This document shows positions 48,970 through 57,198 of a DNA stretch of 64,000 nt, one piece after another; positions within the stretch are counted from its first letter, which is position 1, and every line of letters starts with the position of its first letter. The stretch is from assembly GCF_030294945.1 (NCBI RefSeq), contig NZ_AP018448.1, positions 8,094,501 through 8,158,500 of the forward strand, read 5' to 3'. The notes beneath the pieces are model-generated. The model was given only the letters and a program-made list of their open reading frames with translations. It was not told where the DNA came from and made no database searches. This DNA comes from Streptomyces graminofaciens (GTDB taxonomy: Bacteria; Actinomycetota; Actinomycetes; Streptomycetales; Streptomycetaceae). Made by a program: the position numbers and the translations under genes.

Positions 48970-50574
48970 TCACGGCGGCGGTGTCAGTTCCGCTCGCATC
49001 GCCGCGCGCAACCGCAACGTGGTCGTCAGTCGCTGAAACGCCTCCGCCCAGTACCCCCCGGCCCCGGGCGAAGCGCCCTCCGTCTCCTCCGGCGTCGCCG
49101 CGAGCGGATCCAGCCGCACCGCCTCCGCCGGGTCCAGACAACGCTCGGCCAGCCCCATCACCCCACTGAAGCTCCACGGATAGCTCCCGGCGTCCCGGGC
49201 GATGTCGAGCGCGTCCACCACCGCCCGCCCCAACGGCGGCGCCCACGGCACGGCACACACCCCGAGCAGCTGGAACGCCTCCGACAGCCCGTGCGTCCCG
49301 ATGAACCCCGCCACCCACGCGGCCCGCTCGTCCGCCTCCAACGTCGCCAGCAACTTGGCCCGCTCGGCCGACGACACGGCCCCCGGCCCCCCTGCCTCGG
49401 GCGTCGACGGCGCCCCCAGCAACGCCCGCGACCACCCGGGATCCCGCTGCCGCACCGCCGCCCGGCACCACGCCGCGTGCAACTCGCCCTGCCAGTCGTC
49501 CGCGACCGGCAACGTCACGATCTCCTCCGGCGTACGCCCCCCGAACCGCCCCGACCACGCCCCGAGCGGTGTCGCCTCCACCAACTGGCCCAGCCACCAC
49601 GACCGTTCACCCCGTCCGGCGGGAGCCTTGGCCACCACACCGTCGCGCTCCATGCCGGCATCGCACGCGTGCGGTGCCTCGACCACCAGCGTGGGCGTGT
49701 CGCCCGTGTGGTCGACCGCCACGCAGGCCGTCGCCCGTACCGCCATCCGTCCCGCGAGCGCCGAGTCGGGCAGCGCGGACAGCAACTCCGCTGCCGTGGC
49801 CCGCACATTCCGGCTGCGGTCCGCCAACGCCCCCTCCAGGAAGGGCTCGTCCGCCGACTCCAGCCCCGTACGGAGCGTGTCGAGGAACATCAACCGGTCC
49901 TCGGCCCGCTCCGTCGCCCACGTCGACATCAGCAACTCACGGGCGGCCGCGGCCTCCTGGGCCCGTATCCCGGTGAGCAGAGCCACCCGCTCCGCGAACA
50001 GGCCCTCCTGCCAGAGCCGCCGCACCCGGTCCGGCTCGTCCGCCCCGGGCAGGGCCGAACCGCCGCCCGGCGCGGCGCGCAGCGCGAACCGCCAGTCGGA
50101 GTTGAGCCGGGCCAGCCACAGCGCGCGCGGGCCCGCGAAGGCCAGGGCGGCGGGGCGCAGGTCGGTACGCCCGCGCGCCGCGTCCAGCAGCGCGGGCAGC
50201 GCCTCCGGGGGCGCCGCGTAGCCGTACGCGTTCGCCAGGGCCAGCCACTGCGGCAGCAGTTCCATCAGATCGGGCGCCGTGCCCCTGCGGCCACCGCCCG
50301 TGCCGGGCCGGTCGGCCAGCAGCGTGGTGAGCCTGCGCGTCGCGGCGGGTGGCAGCGCCGCCCGCCGGTCCGCCGCCGCGGGTTCCGGCCGCGCCGCCGC
50401 CCGTACGGGCCGTATCCCCGCCCTGCGCCGCACGGTCTCCACCGCCGCCGCGTCCACCAGGGCCACCGGCGCCTGACGGCCGTGCACCGCCCCCACGGGC
50501 ATACGACGGTCCGTGCCGAGCAACGCCGTGGTGACGAGCTCCTCCCAGGCGCTCGCCGCCGAAGTGCCGGTCAT
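48970..50574 (-). CDS. DUF5691 family protein of the SWIM/MoxR/VWA system
   Basis: A 534-residue cytoplasmic protein, mostly helical and Ala/Leu/Arg-rich, with the start motif WEELVTTALLGTDRR typical of DUF5691. The middle looks HEAT-like (RNVRATAAELLSALPDSALAG). No enzyme motif is seen. It lies 68 bases after the SWIM gene on the same strand and both are probably expressed from the PafBC-type promoter at 52038-52060. ATG at 50574 follows AAAGGAA; the longer frame to 51369 is a shadow of the SWIM gene. Confidence 0.85.
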   Translation of the reverse strand: MTGTSAASAWEELVTTALLGTDRRMPVGAVHGRQAPVALVDAAAVETVRRRAGIRPVRAAARPEPAAADRRAALPPAATRRLTTLLADRPGTGGGRRGTAPDLMELLPQWLALANAYGYAAPPEALPALLDAARGRTDLRPAALAFAGPRALWLARLNSDWRFALRAAPGGGSALPGADEPDRVRRLWQEGLFAERVALLTGIRAQEAAAARELLMSTWATERAEDRLMFLDTLRTGLESADEPFLEGALADRSRNVRATAAELLSALPDSALAGRMAVRATACVAVDHTGDTPTLVVEAPHACDAGMERDGVVAKAPAGRGERSWWLGQLVEATPLGAWSGRFGGRTPEEIVTLPVADDWQGELHAAWCRAAVRQRDPGWSRALLGAPSTPEAGGPGAVSSAERAKLLATLEADERAAWVAGFIGTHGLSEAFQLLGVCAVPWAPPLGRAVVDALDIARDAGSYPWSFSGVMGLAERCLDPAEAVRLDPLAATPEETEGASPGAGGYWAEAFQRLTTTLRLRAAMRAELTPPP

Positions 50575-50642
50575 GAGGGTTCCTTTCGTACGGAGACGAT
50601 CGGTCGGGAACGCCGAGTCGGTCGGGTTCGCGCTGGTGGGCC

Positions 50643-52031
50643 TCAGCACAGCGTCACCATCCGCCCGGCCACGGCCCCGTCGGCCCCGTCGGCTCCACCG
50701 GTCCCTTCCGCCCAGGCCGTAAGTGGTGTGAAGCCCCGGTGGCCGCACTCGCCGAAGACCGTGACGGGGGTGCCGCCGGAGAGGGCGGCCAGGCGCCACA
50801 GGCCCGGGCGGGTGCCGGCGGACGGGGTCAGGGGCAGGGCCAGCTCGCCGGCGGGGTCCGTCAGCTGCCAGCCGTCGCCGTCCGGGGTCGGTATCACCCC
50901 GGCGAGCGTCACCGGGTACGAGTCCAGCCACGGGTCGTCCCGCAGGGCCTCGCCGTAGCGCGCCGCGGCCTCGGCCGGGGTCACACCCGGGGGCCGTATC
51001 GCCGCCGGCTCGGGGACGGTGAACCGCTCGCCCAAGGCGGCGCGCAGCTGCCCCGCGCCGGGGTACGACGACACCTCCGCCTCGAACGCCAGCCCGACCG
51101 GCAGTGACAGCTCGGGCGCGCGGCCGGCGGCGCCGTAGGAGAGGAGCAGTGCCGTACGGCCCGACTCGGCGCCGTGGACCCAGATGCGGCGGGTGGTGAG
51201 GCGGGTGTCCGCCGTGTCGTACTGGGCGAGGGCCAGCCAGCGGTCGCGGACCGGCGGGCCGTCCGGGGAGCCGGGCAGGCCGACCCGGGAGCGGACCGTC
51301 GCCGCGAGTCCCTCCGGGAGCCGTTCGCGACGCAGCCAGCCCTGGACGAGGAGGTGCAGAAGCGCGCACTCCTCAAGGAGCCGGACCGGCCAGCCGGGGC
51401 CCGAGCCCGGTATCGCACCCAATTCCCTTACACGGGCGGCCAGTCCGGGGGCCTGGGCGTCGACCATGCGGGCCGCCGTCTCCTCCCACAGCCCGTACCC
51501 CGCCCGCTCCGCGGCGGCCAGGCCGCCGCGGAGCAGATCGCCCAGGCGCTGCTCCAGCTCCGTCGCGCCCGCGGTGATGCGTTCGGCGCGGCGCTCCGCC
51601 CTGCGGAGCGCCGCCTCCGGGTCAGCGGACGTGGCCCCAGATGCCGCGCCCGTCCTCGTCGTCCTCTCCGCTGCGCGCGTGCGGCGCCCGGAGAGCCACT
51701 GCTCCGCCCAGTCCGGCGCCTGCCCATGCGGCACCGCACCGTCGTCGGCCGCCCAGAGCAGCAGCAGTCCCAGTGCGTGCTTGCACGGGAACTTGCGGCT
51801 CGGACAACTGCACTTGTACGCGGGCCCGGAGGGATCCGCGACGTCGACCACGGTCTGATACGGCTTGCTGCCACTGCCTTTGCACAGTCCCCACACCGTC
51901 CCCTCGTCCGAAGTGCCCGCCTGCGACCACGGTCCGGCCGCGGCGAGTTTGCTTCCGGCTTTGCGCGACGCTGCGTCAGGCGCCGATGCCAGCACCTGCT
52001 CAGCCGTCCAGCGCACCCCCTGCTGAGTCAT
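50643..52031 (-). CDS. SWIM zinc-finger protein of the MoxR/VWA system
   Basis: A 462-residue protein with a SWIM zinc finger near the N-terminus (Cys74, Cys76, Cys83, His85 in CSCPSRKFPCKH), a fold that binds DNA or proteins. A helical Ala/Arg-rich part and a beta-rich C-terminal half follow. It is the counterpart of E. coli YehQ in the yehL-M-P-Q layout. The PafBC-type promoter lies so close that transcription would start at or next to the ATG (six bases after TACCTT), giving a leaderless message. It is divergent from the MoxR gene. Confidence 0.9.
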   Translation of the reverse strand: MTQQGVRWTAEQVLASAPDAASRKAGSKLAAAGPWSQAGTSDEGTVWGLCKGSGSKPYQTVVDVADPSGPAYKCSCPSRKFPCKHALGLLLLWAADDGAVPHGQAPDWAEQWLSGRRTRAAERTTRTGAASGATSADPEAALRRAERRAERITAGATELEQRLGDLLRGGLAAAERAGYGLWEETAARMVDAQAPGLAARVRELGAIPGSGPGWPVRLLEECALLHLLVQGWLRRERLPEGLAATVRSRVGLPGSPDGPPVRDRWLALAQYDTADTRLTTRRIWVHGAESGRTALLLSYGAAGRAPELSLPVGLAFEAEVSSYPGAGQLRAALGERFTVPEPAAIRPPGVTPAEAAARYGEALRDDPWLDSYPVTLAGVIPTPDGDGWQLTDPAGELALPLTPSAGTRPGLWRLAALSGGTPVTVFGECGHRGFTPLTAWAEGTGGADGADGAVAGRMVTLC

Positions 52032-52037
52032 GTTCCG

Positions 52038-52060
52038 AAGGTAGATCCCACCACTGACAA
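52038..52060 (-). promoter_or_regulatory. PafBC-type DNA-damage promoter of the SWIM-DUF5691 genes
   Basis: On the minus strand: TTGTCAGTG (52060-52052), eight bases, TACCTT (52043-52038), then six bases to the ATG. This is an exact match to TTGTCRGTG-N8-TANNNT. Confidence 0.8.
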
Positions 52061-52098
52061 TTGGCTTGCGCCACTCGATTTTCGCAGGTCAGACTGGA

Positions 52099-52121
52099 TT
52101 GTCAGTGGCGTGGTGCAGTGT
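52099..52121 (+). promoter_or_regulatory. PafBC-type promoter of the MoxR-DUF5682-VWA genes
   Basis: On the plus strand: TTGTCAGTG (52099-52107), eight bases, CAGTGT (52116-52121). The upstream element is perfect; the -10 has C for T at its first position. Expected start near 52128, leaving about 37 bases before the ATG at 52165. With the minus-strand site it forms an 11-base inverted repeat (CCACTGACAAT and ATTGTCAGTGG). Confidence 0.7.
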
Positions 52122-52164: not shown

Positions 52165-53319
52165 ATGCCTGCGTCCATTGAAACGACCACTGTCGACCCG
52201 ACCCGCAACCAGTCCGCGCCCGCGAACGCGCGTACGAGCGGCGAGGTGCTGCGGGCGCATGCCGAGCACGCCTTCGCCGATGAACTGGCCGCGCTGGCCG
52301 CACAGGACGACCGGCCCCGCCCGGCCCGCTGGAAGCTGTCGCCGTGGGCCGTCGCGACCTATCTGCTCGGGGGCACGCTCCCGGACGGCACGGTGATCAC
52401 ACCGAAGTACGTCGGCCCGCGCCGCATCGTCGAGGTCGCCGTCACCACCCTCGCCACCGACCGAGCCCTGCTCCTGCTCGGCGTGCCCGGCACGGCGAAG
52501 ACATGGGTCTCCGAGCACCTGGCGGCGGCCGTCAGCGGCGACTCGACCCTGCTCGTGCAGGGTACGGCGGGCACACCCGAGGAGGCCATCCGTTATGGGT
52601 GGAACTACGCGCGGCTGCTCGCCCACGGCCCGAGCCGCGACGCCCTCGTGCCCAGCCCCGTCATGCGGGCCATGTCGGAGGGCATGACGGCCCGCGTCGA
52701 GGAGCTGACCCGCATCCCGGCCGACGTCCAGGACACACTGATCACGATCCTGTCCGAGAAGACCCTGCCGATACCGGAGTTGGGGCAGGAGGTGCAGGCC
52801 GTCCGCGGCTTCAACCTCATCGCCACGGCCAACGACCGCGACCGCGGGGTCAACGACCTGTCGAGCGCCCTGCGCCGCCGCTTCAACACGGTCGTGCTGC
52901 CGCTGCCGGAGAGCGCCGACGCCGAGGTCGACATCGTCTCGCGCCGCGTCGACCAGATCGGCCGCTCCCTCGACCTGCCGACCGCGCCCGACGGCATCGA
53001 CGAGATCCGCCGCGTCGTCACGGTCTTCCGCGAGCTGCGCGACGGCGTCACGACGGACGGCCGCACGAAGCTGAAGTCGCCCAGCGGCACGCTGTCGACG
53101 GCCGAGGCGATCTCCGTAGTCACCAACGGCCTCGCCCTGTCCGCCCACTTCGGCGACGGCGTCCTGCGCGCCTCCGACGTCGCCGCCGGCATCCTCGGCG
53201 CCGTCGTCCGCGACCCCGCCGCCGACCGCGTCATCTGGCAGGAGTATCTGGAGGCCGTCGTCCGCGAGCGCGACGGCTGGACGGACTTCTACCGCGCCTG
53301 CCGCGAGGTGAGCGCATGA
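52165..53319 (+). CDS. MoxR-family AAA+ ATPase
   Basis: A 384-residue AAA+ ATPase of the MoxR/YehL group, thought to remodel partner proteins together with a VWA protein. Walker A is GVPGTAKT (106-113), followed by the MoxR features GTAGTPEEAIRYGWN, RVEELTRIPADVQDTLITILSEK, ATANDRDRG (sensor 1) and SALRRRFN (arginine finger region). The usual DE of Walker B reads RVEE. ATG at 52165 follows GGAGGGGG. Its TGA overlaps the ATG of the DUF5682 gene, the first of three such overlaps. Confidence 0.92.
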   Translation: MPASIETTTVDPTRNQSAPANARTSGEVLRAHAEHAFADELAALAAQDDRPRPARWKLSPWAVATYLLGGTLPDGTVITPKYVGPRRIVEVAVTTLATDRALLLLGVPGTAKTWVSEHLAAAVSGDSTLLVQGTAGTPEEAIRYGWNYARLLAHGPSRDALVPSPVMRAMSEGMTARVEELTRIPADVQDTLITILSEKTLPIPELGQEVQAVRGFNLIATANDRDRGVNDLSSALRRRFNTVVLPLPESADAEVDIVSRRVDQIGRSLDLPTAPDGIDEIRRVVTVFRELRDGVTTDGRTKLKSPSGTLSTAEAISVVTNGLALSAHFGDGVLRASDVAAGILGAVVRDPAADRVIWQEYLEAVVRERDGWTDFYRACREVSA

Positions 53320-55832
53320 CCGCCCAGGAGGGGAGGGGAAGGACCTCCGGCGGCGGGCCGCTGCTGCTGGGCGTACGGCATCACGGGCCGGGGTCGGCCC
53401 GGGCGGTGCGGGCGGCGTTGGACGCGGCCCGGCCCCGGGTGGTGCTGATCGAGGGACCACCCGAAGCGGACGCTCTGGTTCCGCTGGCCGCCGAGGAGGG
53501 CATGCGACCCCCGGTCGCCCTGCTCGCCCACGCGGTGGACGAGCCGGGCCGCTCGGCGTTCTGGCCGCTCGCCGAGTTCTCCCCGGAGTGGATCGCCATC
53601 CGCTGGGCCCTGCACCACGGGGTCCCGGCCCGCTTCATCGACCTCCCGGCCACACACACGCTGGCCTGGGAGAAGGAGGAGACGGGGGCGGCGGGAGAGG
53701 GTTCCCCGGACGGGCGGGCCGAGGGCGGCGCCGATGGGTCGGACGAGGACGAGGAGACGGCTGAGGGTTCTCCCGAGCCGGTGTCTCCCGAGCCGGCGTC
53801 CCCTGAGGCCATGTCCTCCGAGTCGGTGTCCTCCGAGGCGTCGATCCGCGTCGATCCGCTCGCCGCGCTCGCCGAAGCCGCCGGGTACGACGATCCCGAG
53901 CGCTGGTGGGAGGACGTGGTCGAGCACCGGGGGACGGGTGGAGACGTCTTCGCGCCGTTCACCGCGCTGGAGGAGGCCATGAGCGCGCTGCGGGAGGCGT
54001 ACGGCAGCGGGGGGCACGACCGGGACCTGGTGCGCGAGGCGTACATGCGGCTTCAACTACGGGCCGCGCAGAAGGAGTTCGGGGACGGCGAGGTGGCTGT
54101 GGTGTGCGGGGCCTGGCATGTCCCCGCGCTGCGGGAGAGGCGAACCGTCGCCGCCGACCGGGCACTGCTGAAGGGGCTGCCCAAGGTCAAGGCCGACATG
54201 ACGTGGGTGCCGTGGACGCACCGGCGGCTCGCCCGGGCCAGCGGGTACGGCGCGGGCATCGACTCGCCGGGCTGGTACGGGCATCTGTTCGGCGCGCCCG
54301 ACCGTCCCGTGGAGCGTTGGCTGACCAAGGTCGCGGGGCTGTTGCGCGAGGAGGACCGGATCGTCTCCTCCGCGCACGTCATCGAGGCGGTACGGCTGGC
54401 CGAGACGCTCGCGGCGATGCGCGGGCGCCCGCTGCCCGGGCTGACCGAGACCACCGACGCCGTACGGGCGGTGATGTGCGAGGGCTCGGACGTACCGCTG
54501 TCGCTGGTGCACGACCGGCTGGTGGTCGGCGATGTGCTGGGCGAGGTGCCCGAGGCGGCGCCGGCGGTGCCCTTGCAGCGGGACCTCGCGCGGCAGCAGC
54601 GGCGGCTGCGGCTCAAGCCGGAGGCGCTGGAGCGGGAGCTGGAGCTCGACCTGCGCAAGGAGAACGACACCGAGCGCAGCCGTCTGCTGCACCGGCTGCG
54701 GCTGCTCGGCGTCGAGTGGGGCGAGCCGGCGGTCACGCGCGGCAGCACGGGGACGTTCCGGGAGGCCTGGCGGCTGCGCTGGGAGCCGGAGCTGTCGGTG
54801 CGGATCGCCGAGGCCGGGGTGTGGGGGACCACCGTGCTCGCGGCGGCGACCGCGAAGGCCGAGGCGGACGCCCTGGCCGCCCCGTCGCTCGCCGACATCA
54901 CCGGCCTCGCCGAGCGCTGCCTCCTCGCCGAACTCCCGGACGCCCTGCCGGTGGTGATGCGGGTGCTCGCCGACCGCGCCGCCCTCGACGCGGACGTCGG
55001 CCACCTCGCCCAGGCCCTCCCGGCACTGGTCCGCACCCTGCGCTACGGCGACGTCCGCGCCACGGACACCCGGGCCCTGGCCGGCGTCGCGGCCGGACTT
55101 GCCGAGCGCGTCTTCGTCGGCCTGCCGCCCGCCTGTGCGGCGCTCGACGCGGAGGCCGCACAGGAGTTGCGCGGCCATGTGGACGCCGTGCACGGGGCGG
55201 TGGGCCTCCTGGGGGACGCCGTCACGGCCGAGCGGGGCGACATACGGCATGGGCTTCCGGGCGACATACGCGGCCGCTGGCACTCCGTGCTCCGCGTGCT
55301 GAGCGCGCGAGACACCGTCCCGGGTGTCATCCGTGGGCGGTCCGTGCGACTCCTGCTGGACGAGGGCGAGTTGGCGCAGGACGAGGCGGCGCGGCTCATG
55401 GGGCTGGTGCTCTCGCCGGGCACGGCGCCGGCCGACGCGGCCGCGTGGATCGAGGGGTTCGTCGGCGGCGGCTCCGGCGGCGGAATGCTGCTGGTCCACG
55501 ACGAGCGGCTGCTCGGCTTGGTGGACGCGTGGCTGACCGGGGTGCCGGGGGACGCGTTCACCGACGTACTGCCGTTGCTGCGGCGGACGTTCTCGGCGTA
55601 CGAACCGGGGGTGCGCCGGACGCTCGGCGAGTTGGTGCGGCGTGGACCGGGGGCGAGGGTCGGTGCTGCGGTTTCCGGTGCCGGGATACCGGGCTTCGCC
55701 GCCGACCTGGACGACGCCCGTGCGGACGCGGTGCTGCCTGTGCTGCGGCTGCTGCTCGGCCTGGACGGCGACCAGGAGCACGTCGACGAAAACGACATTG
55801 ACGACAAGAACCTTGTGGGGGTGGCGGGATGA
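53316..55832 (+). CDS. DUF5682 family protein (YehM-like)
   Basis: An 838-residue protein starting with the family signature LLLGVRHHGPGSARAV and VVLIEGPPEADAL. The HHGPGS motif and the later CGAWHVPAL resemble the TraB/ChaN-like hydrolase fold, so a hidden enzymatic or binding site is possible, which is inference. An acidic Ser/Glu/Pro-rich insert (about 115-185) is probably a loop. E. coli YehM is the likely counterpart. The ATG overlaps the MoxR stop (ATGA), and its own TGA overlaps the next ATG. Confidence 0.88.
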   Translation: MTAQEGRGRTSGGGPLLLGVRHHGPGSARAVRAALDAARPRVVLIEGPPEADALVPLAAEEGMRPPVALLAHAVDEPGRSAFWPLAEFSPEWIAIRWALHHGVPARFIDLPATHTLAWEKEETGAAGEGSPDGRAEGGADGSDEDEETAEGSPEPVSPEPASPEAMSSESVSSEASIRVDPLAALAEAAGYDDPERWWEDVVEHRGTGGDVFAPFTALEEAMSALREAYGSGGHDRDLVREAYMRLQLRAAQKEFGDGEVAVVCGAWHVPALRERRTVAADRALLKGLPKVKADMTWVPWTHRRLARASGYGAGIDSPGWYGHLFGAPDRPVERWLTKVAGLLREEDRIVSSAHVIEAVRLAETLAAMRGRPLPGLTETTDAVRAVMCEGSDVPLSLVHDRLVVGDVLGEVPEAAPAVPLQRDLARQQRRLRLKPEALERELELDLRKENDTERSRLLHRLRLLGVEWGEPAVTRGSTGTFREAWRLRWEPELSVRIAEAGVWGTTVLAAATAKAEADALAAPSLADITGLAERCLLAELPDALPVVMRVLADRAALDADVGHLAQALPALVRTLRYGDVRATDTRALAGVAAGLAERVFVGLPPACAALDAEAAQELRGHVDAVHGAVGLLGDAVTAERGDIRHGLPGDIRGRWHSVLRVLSARDTVPGVIRGRSVRLLLDEGELAQDEAARLMGLVLSPGTAPADAAAWIEGFVGGGSGGGMLLVHDERLLGLVDAWLTGVPGDAFTDVLPLLRRTFSAYEPGVRRTLGELVRRGPGARVGAAVSGAGIPGFAADLDDARADAVLPVLRLLLGLDGDQEHVDENDIDDKNLVGVAG

Positions 55833-55990
55833 CGACCGACGGACTGAGGGAGCAGGGGCAGGCCGCCGAAGCGGTGGCCGCCGGGGACCGGCACGGGCAG
55901 GGGCGCGGGCTTCGCCCGGACGACCGCCCGGCGACGACCGTGCCGGTGATCCCCCTCTGGGACCGGCCTCGTACTGGGGTGCGCGGATGA
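55829..55990 (+). CDS. Small reading frame coupled between DUF5682 and VWA genes
   Basis: A 53-residue frame starting MTTDGLREQGQAAEAV and ending WDRPRTGVRG. Its ATG overlaps the DUF5682 stop (ATGA at 55829) and its TGA overlaps the ATG of the VWA gene (ATGA at 55987). Third codon positions are mostly G or C. The double overlap would keep ribosomes running through the operon, either as a real micro-protein or as a coupling device. No homologue is recognised. Confidence 0.55.
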   Translation: MTTDGLREQGQAAEAVAAGDRHGQGRGLRPDDRPATTVPVIPLWDRPRTGVRG

Positions 55991-57198
55991 CGACAGGGAC
56001 GACGGGGACGACGGGGACGACGGGGACGACGGGTACAGGGGGGCCGGCGGCGGAGGCGACCGGCGAGCGGTTGCGGCGCTGGCGGCTGGTGCTGGGCGGG
56101 GACGCGGCCGACGGCACCGGGTGCGCGCTCGGCGGGCGGGACGCGGCGATGGACCAGGCGCTGACCGCGCTGTACGGAAAGGGGGACAAACCGCAGAAGG
56201 GGAAGGACCGTTCGGCGGGGCTCGGGGCGTCGGCGCCGTCCGTGGCGCGCTGGCTCGGGGACATCCGGACGTACTTCCCGTCCTCCGTCGTGCAGGTCAT
56301 GCAGCGGGACGCCATCGACCGGCTCGGGCTGTCCACGCTGCTGCTGGAACCGGAGATGCTCGAGGCGGTGGAGGCCGACGTCCACCTCGTCGGTACCCTC
56401 CTCTCCCTCAACAAGGCCATGCCGGAGACGACGAAGGAGACCGCGCGGGCCGTCGTGCGGAAGGTCGTCGAGGACCTGGAGAAGAAGCTCGCCACCCGCA
56501 CGCGGGCCACCCTCACCGGCGCCCTCGACCGCAGCGCCCGGATCAACCGCCCGCGCCACCACGACATCGACTGGAACCGCACGATCGCGGCCAACCTGAA
56601 GAACTACCTCCCGGAGTACCGCACGGTCGTGCCCGAGCGGCTCATCGGGTACGGGCGGGCCTCGCAGTCGGTGAAGAAAGAGGTCGTCCTCTGCATCGAC
56701 CAGTCGGGGTCGATGGCGGCGTCCGTCGTCTACGCGTCGGTGTTCGGGGCCGTGCTGGCGTCGATGCGGTCCATCAGCACCCGGCTCGTCGTCTTCGACA
56801 CGGCCGTCGTGGACCTCACCGACCAGCTGGACGACCCGGTCGACGTCCTCTTCGGCACCCAGCTCGGCGGTGGCACGGACATCAACAGGGCGCTCGCGTA
56901 CTGCCAGTCGCAGATCACCCGGCCCGCGGAGACGGTGGTCGTGCTGATCAGCGACCTCTACGAGGGCGGGATACGCGACGAGATGCTGAAGCGGGTGGCG
57001 GCGATGAAGGCGTCGGGGGTGCAGTTTGTGACGCTGCTCGCGCTCTCCGACGAAGGGACGCCCGCGTACGACCGCGAGCACGCGGCGGCGCTCTCGGCCC
57101 TCGGCGCACCGGCGTTCGCCTGCACGCCCGACCTGTTCCCCGAGGTCATGGCGGCGGCGATCGAGAAGCGGCCGCTGCCGATACCGGAGGGCGTGTGA
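55987..57198 (+). CDS. VWA (MIDAS) protein partner of MoxR (YehP-like)
   Basis: A 403-residue protein with a C-terminal von Willebrand A domain whose metal site is complete: DQSGS (near 238-242), the Thr in GGGTDI and the Asp in LISDLYEG. A helical N-terminal half precedes it. VWA proteins of this kind recruit substrates for MoxR ATPases. The first residues, a run of TTG repeats, come from a 9-base DNA repeat (ACGACGGGG, 55988-56036). ATG at 55987 is coupled to the small frame upstream; a longer frame to 55642 is unlikely. Confidence 0.9.
   Translation: MTTGTTGTTGTTGTTGTGGPAAEATGERLRRWRLVLGGDAADGTGCALGGRDAAMDQALTALYGKGDKPQKGKDRSAGLGASAPSVARWLGDIRTYFPSSVVQVMQRDAIDRLGLSTLLLEPEMLEAVEADVHLVGTLLSLNKAMPETTKETARAVVRKVVEDLEKKLATRTRATLTGALDRSARINRPRHHDIDWNRTIAANLKNYLPEYRTVVPERLIGYGRASQSVKKEVVLCIDQSGSMAASVVYASVFGAVLASMRSISTRLVVFDTAVVDLTDQLDDPVDVLFGTQLGGGTDINRALAYCQSQITRPAETVVVLISDLYEGGIRDEMLKRVAAMKASGVQFVTLLALSDEGTPAYDREHAAALSALGAPAFACTPDLFPEVMAAAIEKRPLPIPEGV

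Follow-up and report, generated by a model that had tools for sequence, protein, structure and literature searches.

The five-gene system at the locus

The window, that is, the whole 64-kb stretch of Streptomyces graminofaciens DNA that was analysed, contains five genes arranged in two divergent groups. The ATG of a SWIM zinc-finger gene (52031, minus strand) and the ATG of a MoxR-type ATPase gene (52165, plus strand) are separated by 133 bases, and each of these genes is followed by further members of the system:

48970..50649, minus strand: DUF5691 protein (PF18944, 574.9 bits); its GTG start overlaps the SWIM stop
50643..52031, minus strand: SWIM zinc-finger protein, 462 aa (PF04434, 27.1 bits, cut-off 19.6)
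52165..53319, plus strand: MoxR-type AAA+ ATPase, 384 aa (PF07728 AAA_5, 127.6 bits)
53316..55832, plus strand: DUF5682 protein, 838 aa; ATGA overlap with the MoxR stop
55813..57198, plus strand: VWA (CoxE-like) protein (PF05762, 207.1 bits); start codon uncertain

The overlaps of stop and start codons in both halves (SWIM/DUF5691, MoxR/DUF5682, and DUF5682/VWA) point to a pair of coupled operons. MoxR–VWA pairs act by remodelling partner proteins; midasin and NorQ are the sequence relatives that this MoxR has in the PDB. For DUF5682, a comparison with solved structures gave no match below E 0.1, and the AlphaFold2 model of the protein (mean pLDDT 48.3) was too poor for use. Its N-terminus (window 53316-54200) carries the conserved stretches GVRHHGPGSA, VVLIEGPPE, and CGAWHVP. 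The GxxH-like motifs of this part are reminiscent of the TraB/TIKI/EreA hydrolases; such a hydrolase fold was rejected, being without Pfam support even at E 10.

The plan of a MoxR ATPase with a vWA partner and further components is common to this system and the MoxR–vWA ternary systems (VMAP and others; PMC7159879). Unlike in VMAP, the third component is DUF5682, accompanied by SWIM and DUF5691, and the VMAP (MoxR–vWA–beta-propeller) assignment was discarded, as bpMoxR reached 23.1 bits, under the Pfam cut-off of 27. A known anti-phage defence system was likewise set aside, since the five proteins and one protein of a paralogous operon matched 0 PADLOC families. In E. coli, the yehL-yehM-yehP-yehQ cluster together with yehI presumably represents a related arrangement of MoxR, VWA, SWIM, and DUF4132 partners. 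DUF5682 was found in the E. coli control genome as well and is thus common to both systems; to our knowledge, there is no PafBC in E. coli.

Two predicted PafBC-type promoters in the gap

The gap between the two operons contains the following elements:

52038..52043, minus strand: TACCTT, -10 of the SWIM-side promoter, 6 nt before the SWIM ATG
52052..52060, minus strand: TTGTCAGTG, PafBC-type -26 region element of the SWIM-side promoter (exact 9-mer)
52076..52091, plus strand: CGATTTTCGCAGGTCA, conserved accessory element between the promoters (recurring in gaps as GCAG[G/C]TC)
52099..52107, plus strand: TTGTCAGTG, PafBC-type element of the MoxR-side promoter (exact 9-mer)
52116..52121, plus strand: CAGTGT, variant -10 of the MoxR-side promoter (CAnnnT)

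Both copies of TTGTCAGTG point outwards, and each is followed by 8 bases and a hexamer. On the minus strand the order is TTGTCAGTG (52060-52052), GTGGGATC, TACCTT (52043-52038), CGGAAC, and the SWIM ATG; on the plus strand, TTGTCAGTG is followed by GCGTGGTG, CAGTGT, the ribosome-site-like stretch GGAGGGGGA, and the MoxR ATG. The initial annotation had described TTGTCAGTG-N8-TACCTT on the minus strand and TTGTCAGTG-N8-CAGTGT on the plus strand within a 133-base gap, and all of this is exact in the sequence. It had also assigned the PafBC layout to both sides, and here the outcome differs between them. The consensus given for PafBC-dependent promoters, also called RecA-NDp, is tTGTCRgtg-8nt-TannnT (PMC5656591). 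The SWIM-side site matches it in full, whereas on the MoxR side the 9-mer and the 8-nt spacer fit and the -10 has C in place of the first T. Because of this CAnnnT variant, the putative membership of the MoxR-side site in the PafBC/RecA-NDp class is less certain than that of the SWIM-side site. An SOS box (GAAC-N4-GTTC-like) was absent from the gap of the window, and since such a box was found in just one of 74 Streptomyces gaps, LexA/SOS control was rejected.

The same 9-mer and 8-base spacer, and on the SWIM side also the TAnnnT hexamer, are found in mycobacterial RecA-NDp/PafBC promoters (recA P1 and others). Unlike those promoters, the two described here face each other, the MoxR-side -10 is CAnnnT, and there is an extra GCAGGTCAG element. 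A further difference is that the target genes have not been reported as damage-induced in the literature found, and no paper linking the MoxR–DUF5682–VWA/SWIM cluster to DNA damage was encountered in a search that was thin on subscription journals.

The motif in the window and in the host genome

The exact 9-mer occurs twice in the 64-kb window, both times in the gap. First-order Markov resampling (100 trials) produced 0.16 copies per window on average and never more than 2, so that the bare 9-mers are by themselves just slightly unusual and not decisive. The strength of the case comes from spacing, -10, position, and conservation taken together. When spacer and -10 were included, TTGTCRGTG-N8-TANNNT gave 41 strict sites in the 11.6-Mb host genome vs. 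0 for the reversed pattern, and the looser TTGTCAGTG-N8-NANNNT gave 63 vs. 2. In the search of the host genome with the loosened -10, C as the first -10 base was not rare by chance, which counts against the MoxR side. Predicted PafBC-type promoters are abundant in the S. graminofaciens genome. Another divergent TTGTCAGTG pair lies at G000:C1:11425124-11425191, and such pairs occur at other loci in several Streptomyces genomes.

For each of the 41 strict sites, the best-looking downstream reading frame was taken by a simple rule, and 39 of these first genes were scanned against Pfam; those at L012 (the second site of recA) and L028 (the site of SWIM) were already known and therefore omitted. 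The sites precede recA (two tandem sites), uvrB, ruvC, genes for UDG and dnaX, an AlkZ-like gene, and a RecD2-like (HHH_RecD2) helicase gene. Two DEAD-box helicases, two sigma factors, ribosomal protein S6, and a DUF4132 protein are encoded by further first genes, among which there are also transporters and other genes; 9 of the 39 are without any Pfam family. The genome also has, in tandem downstream of pafA, genes for a WYL+WCX protein and an HTH_PafC+WYL+WCX protein, which by domain and position are of PafB/PafC type; the first of the tandem was called PafB from its position. In having PafB/PafC-type genes and the motif before repair genes, the host is again similar to mycobacterial PafBC systems.

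With its -10 ending 6 nt before the ATG, the SWIM message had been suggested to be leaderless, and the strict sites make this geometry plausible. An ATG or GTG located 5-11 nt past the -10 and opening a frame of at least 60 codons was found at 21 of the 41 sites, as compared with 10, 3, and 8 of 41 when the same test was made at three shifted offsets. Starts of leaderless geometry are accordingly frequent at promoters of this set, and SWIM has one of them.

Conservation across Streptomyces

The first set of orthologous loci consisted of 74 loci, 56 from a genus sample of 61 genomes, in 56 of which a close MoxR orthologue is present, and 18 from a class sample. The patterns scored were T/CTGTCRGTG-N8-TAnnnT on the SWIM side and the same with C/TAnnnT as -10 on the MoxR side. 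A SWIM-side site was found in 73 loci, a MoxR-side site in 70, and both in 69. The SWIM-side -10 is TAnnnT and the MoxR-side -10 is CAnnnT in all 69 tabulated sites of each kind, CACGGT being the commonest of the latter (40/69). The first start-like codon lies 6-7 nt past the -10 in 46 of the 73 SWIM-side sites, and the leaderless geometry is therefore not universal. At five loci one motif is missing, four times on the MoxR side and once on the SWIM side (L087, L138, L145, L147, L132). The second set comprised the best 80 of more matches in another Streptomyces collection, in which species may overlap with the first set; here, the counts were 78/80 for the SWIM side, 79/80 for the MoxR side, and 77/80 for both. 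When both strands of these best 80 loci (1,377,397 bases) were searched, 157 of 157 sites fell within -900 to +80 of the MoxR match, and conservation peaked on the two 9-mers and the -10s, while most of the sequence between them varies. When the genus was searched by pattern, 251 of 392 genomes had a divergent pair with a gap of 20-50 bases, and the reversed control gave 0 among the matches listed; this number is indicative only, as it includes a few pairs at other loci and leaves longer gaps uncounted. Lack of conservation in orthologues, which the initial annotation had named as an argument against its own proposal, thus did not occur across Streptomyces. Given the strict conservation of both promoters, the five-gene system probably belongs to the DNA-damage response.

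It could be argued that the sites are kept for another reason, as housekeeping promoters or remnants, without a damage response in Streptomyces. In favour of this, PMC9380542 describes an initial search in which the M. smegmatis motif did not prove to be conserved in S. venezuelae. For the genus, in samples not chosen for S. venezuelae, the counts obtained here do not agree with that result. RecA-NDp promoters are, moreover, already known in Streptomyces: such a promoter was described before the macrodomain gene SCO6735 of S. coelicolor, where a five-fold UV induction was measured (PMC5087735). That case is similar to the present one in genus and in the non-classical function of the gene, and it differs in having a single promoter, a single gene, and measured induction (PMC5087735). 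Considering also that the host carries the motif before recA, uvrB, and ruvC, retention without a damage response appears very improbable.

Spacing and the inverted repeat

The initial annotation had pointed to an 11-base inverted repeat formed by the two upstream elements; it exists and corresponds to CCACTGACAAT/ATTGTCAGTGG. A dimeric repressor or activator might bind this repeat as one palindromic operator and control both genes, and it is true that the 9-mers face each other in most Streptomyces and that their spacings fall into few classes. Among 120 distinct gaps shorter than 130 bases, the distance from 9-mer to 9-mer was 35-36 bases in 6, 45-47 in 77, 58 in 21, 69-70 in 13, and 93, 101, and 129 in one each. 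In 20 further Streptomyces loci, however, the distance was 173-728 or 196-626 bases, and every 9-mer has an N8 and a -10 to itself. Before recA and other genes, the motif occurs as single, non-palindromic copies, the PafBC motif itself was described as non-palindromic (PMC6789036), and its direction was reported to matter for function (PMC8151990). Since its arms lie anywhere between 35 and 728 bases apart, the inverted repeat amounts to a pair of predicted promoters and not to one operator, and control of both genes through a single palindrome has hardly any probability left. The spacing classes lie about 10-12 bases apart, and a FastTree tree made from SWIM coding DNA (120 rows) implies at least 22 changes of class. 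Helical phasing of both promoters was considered and rejected, since the class steps fit 10.5 bp poorly.

The accessory element and other possible regulators

Between the promoters, GCAG[G/C]TC with a T-run ahead of it was found in 106 of the 120 distinct gaps, directed towards MoxR in 85 and towards SWIM in 21; the remaining 14 gaps are without it. It usually lies 14-15 bases before one 9-mer. The element resembles GCGTTTTnGCWGGTCAG placed 12-15 bases before TTGTCAGTG in either direction, and a near match to it was seen before an MFS gene (L023 and L064 being the loci concerned). The composite pattern has one further site in the host genome, a strict one before a DUF2797 gene.

This recurrence, in the gaps and at the one other strict host site, can be taken to favour a view in which the RecA-independent damage promoter is real and control of this locus lies mainly with ClgR, or with another factor acting at GCAGGTCAG. 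Recognition of the same P1 promoter by ClgR has been reported (PMC5656591). Against this view, exact CAGGTC was found upstream of the SWIM site and of none of the remaining 40 strict host sites, and the core at this locus is in common with the repair-gene set. In addition, the PafB HTH was shown to contact the promoter motif in the M. smegmatis complex (PMC11804915). Main control by ClgR or a further factor is therefore considered unlikely, though it deserves more weight than the two alternatives discussed above, and direct action of PafBC on both promoters is preferred.

Paralogous operons and other genera

The host has a second MoxR–DUF5682/VWA operon, in which a DUF4132 gene comes first; the start of this gene as called is 84 nt downstream of a strict site. 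The upstream regions of 15 loci among roughly 70 paralogue matches listed were checked. In Streptomyces, a site was present upstream in 4 of 4 loci examined of the X–Y–VWA–MoxR type and in 6 of 8 of the DUF4132 type, host included, giving a strict PafBC-type site at the operon start in 10 of the 12 Streptomyces loci examined. In other genera, the site was absent from the 3 paralogue loci examined. Among these paralogous operons (L072 at G000:C1:1220000-1238000, and L148-L158), one contains DUF4132 and has DUF5682 fused to VWA.

Elsewhere in the class, in 20 loci of genera other than Streptomyces, the five-gene system is co-directional, with the order SWIM–DUF5691–MoxR–DUF5682–VWA; all five were found in 19, and DUF5691 was not found in the remaining one (L172). 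The strict motif is absent from these 20 loci. The M. tuberculosis PafBC core, TGTC(GG/AG/AC)-N10-TA-N3-T (PMC8151990), was found just before SWIM in 9 of the 20, vs. 0.02 expected from base shuffles, with 13 occurrences over the whole 20 x 18 kb. A GTG or ATG lies 7-8 nt past the -10 there, a geometry like that in the window. The SWIM-side site is the only one traceable outside Streptomyces. The co-directional gene order, taken as the ancestral one, and the nine cores suggest that the origin of the SWIM-side promoter probably predates Streptomyces, and that the MoxR-side promoter probably appeared when the operon split into divergent halves. The link between promoter and operon is not universal outside Streptomyces: 11 of the 20 operons are without the core at the SWIM start. 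Strict sites number 64 in the 20 genomes, as compared with 1 for the reversed control; six of the 11 core-less genomes have 4 to 12 of them elsewhere (12 in G165), and four genomes with the SWIM core (G229, G168, G281, G129) have no strict site anywhere.

A proposed damage-response module

The explanation that we propose, with a probability of roughly 80%, is that two independent, divergent PafBC (RecA-NDp) promoters co-induce one AAA+/VWA damage-response module. Structural work in mycobacteria showed that PafBC, when bound to ssDNA, takes up a position between the promoter and domain 4 of sigma-A, and in the M. smegmatis complex the -26 promoter motif is read by the PafB HTH (PMC11804915). 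By analogy, single-stranded DNA arising from damage would activate PafBC, which would enable the housekeeping RNA polymerase to use the TTGTCAGTG element at either promoter, and both promoters would fire at once. The SWIM–DUF5691 message, read in one direction, would probably be leaderless, and the MoxR–DUF5682–VWA message, read in the other, would start with a short leader. Cells would in this way produce all five proteins at the same time, and these would act in the response to DNA damage as a single remodelling module of the AAA+/VWA kind. The sequence analysis establishes the motifs and their conservation, the PafB/PafC-type genes of the host, its repair-rich set of sites, the ancestral order of the genes, and the sites ahead of paralogous operons; PafBC binding, the start sites, induction, joint action, and the remodelling target are inferred. 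In a pafBC mutant, a von Willebrand protein (MSMEG_5511) and MoxR1/2, alike by name to the proteins considered here, were reported to be reduced (PMC5656591).

Our guess as to the remodelling target is a protein–DNA complex. Somewhat more speculatively than the proposal for the locus itself, the MoxR–DUF5682–VWA system and related modules might constitute an unrecognised arm of the actinobacterial damage response, in which several paralogous Streptomyces operons have a PafBC promoter at their start, the link to PafBC preceded the operon split, the two promoters of the divergent gap are kept at preferred distances and have an accessory element in common, and the two halves are made together for protein–DNA remodelling; we regard this wider idea as tentative and give it slightly less than even odds. 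If it is true, the remodelled protein–DNA complexes could be RecA-like filaments or crosslinked proteins. Predicted PafBC-type promoters are kept at the SWIM/MoxR locus genus-wide, contrary to the published impression from S. venezuelae, and an uncharacterised AAA+/VWA family, that of E. coli included, would gain a specific physiological setting, the response to DNA damage.
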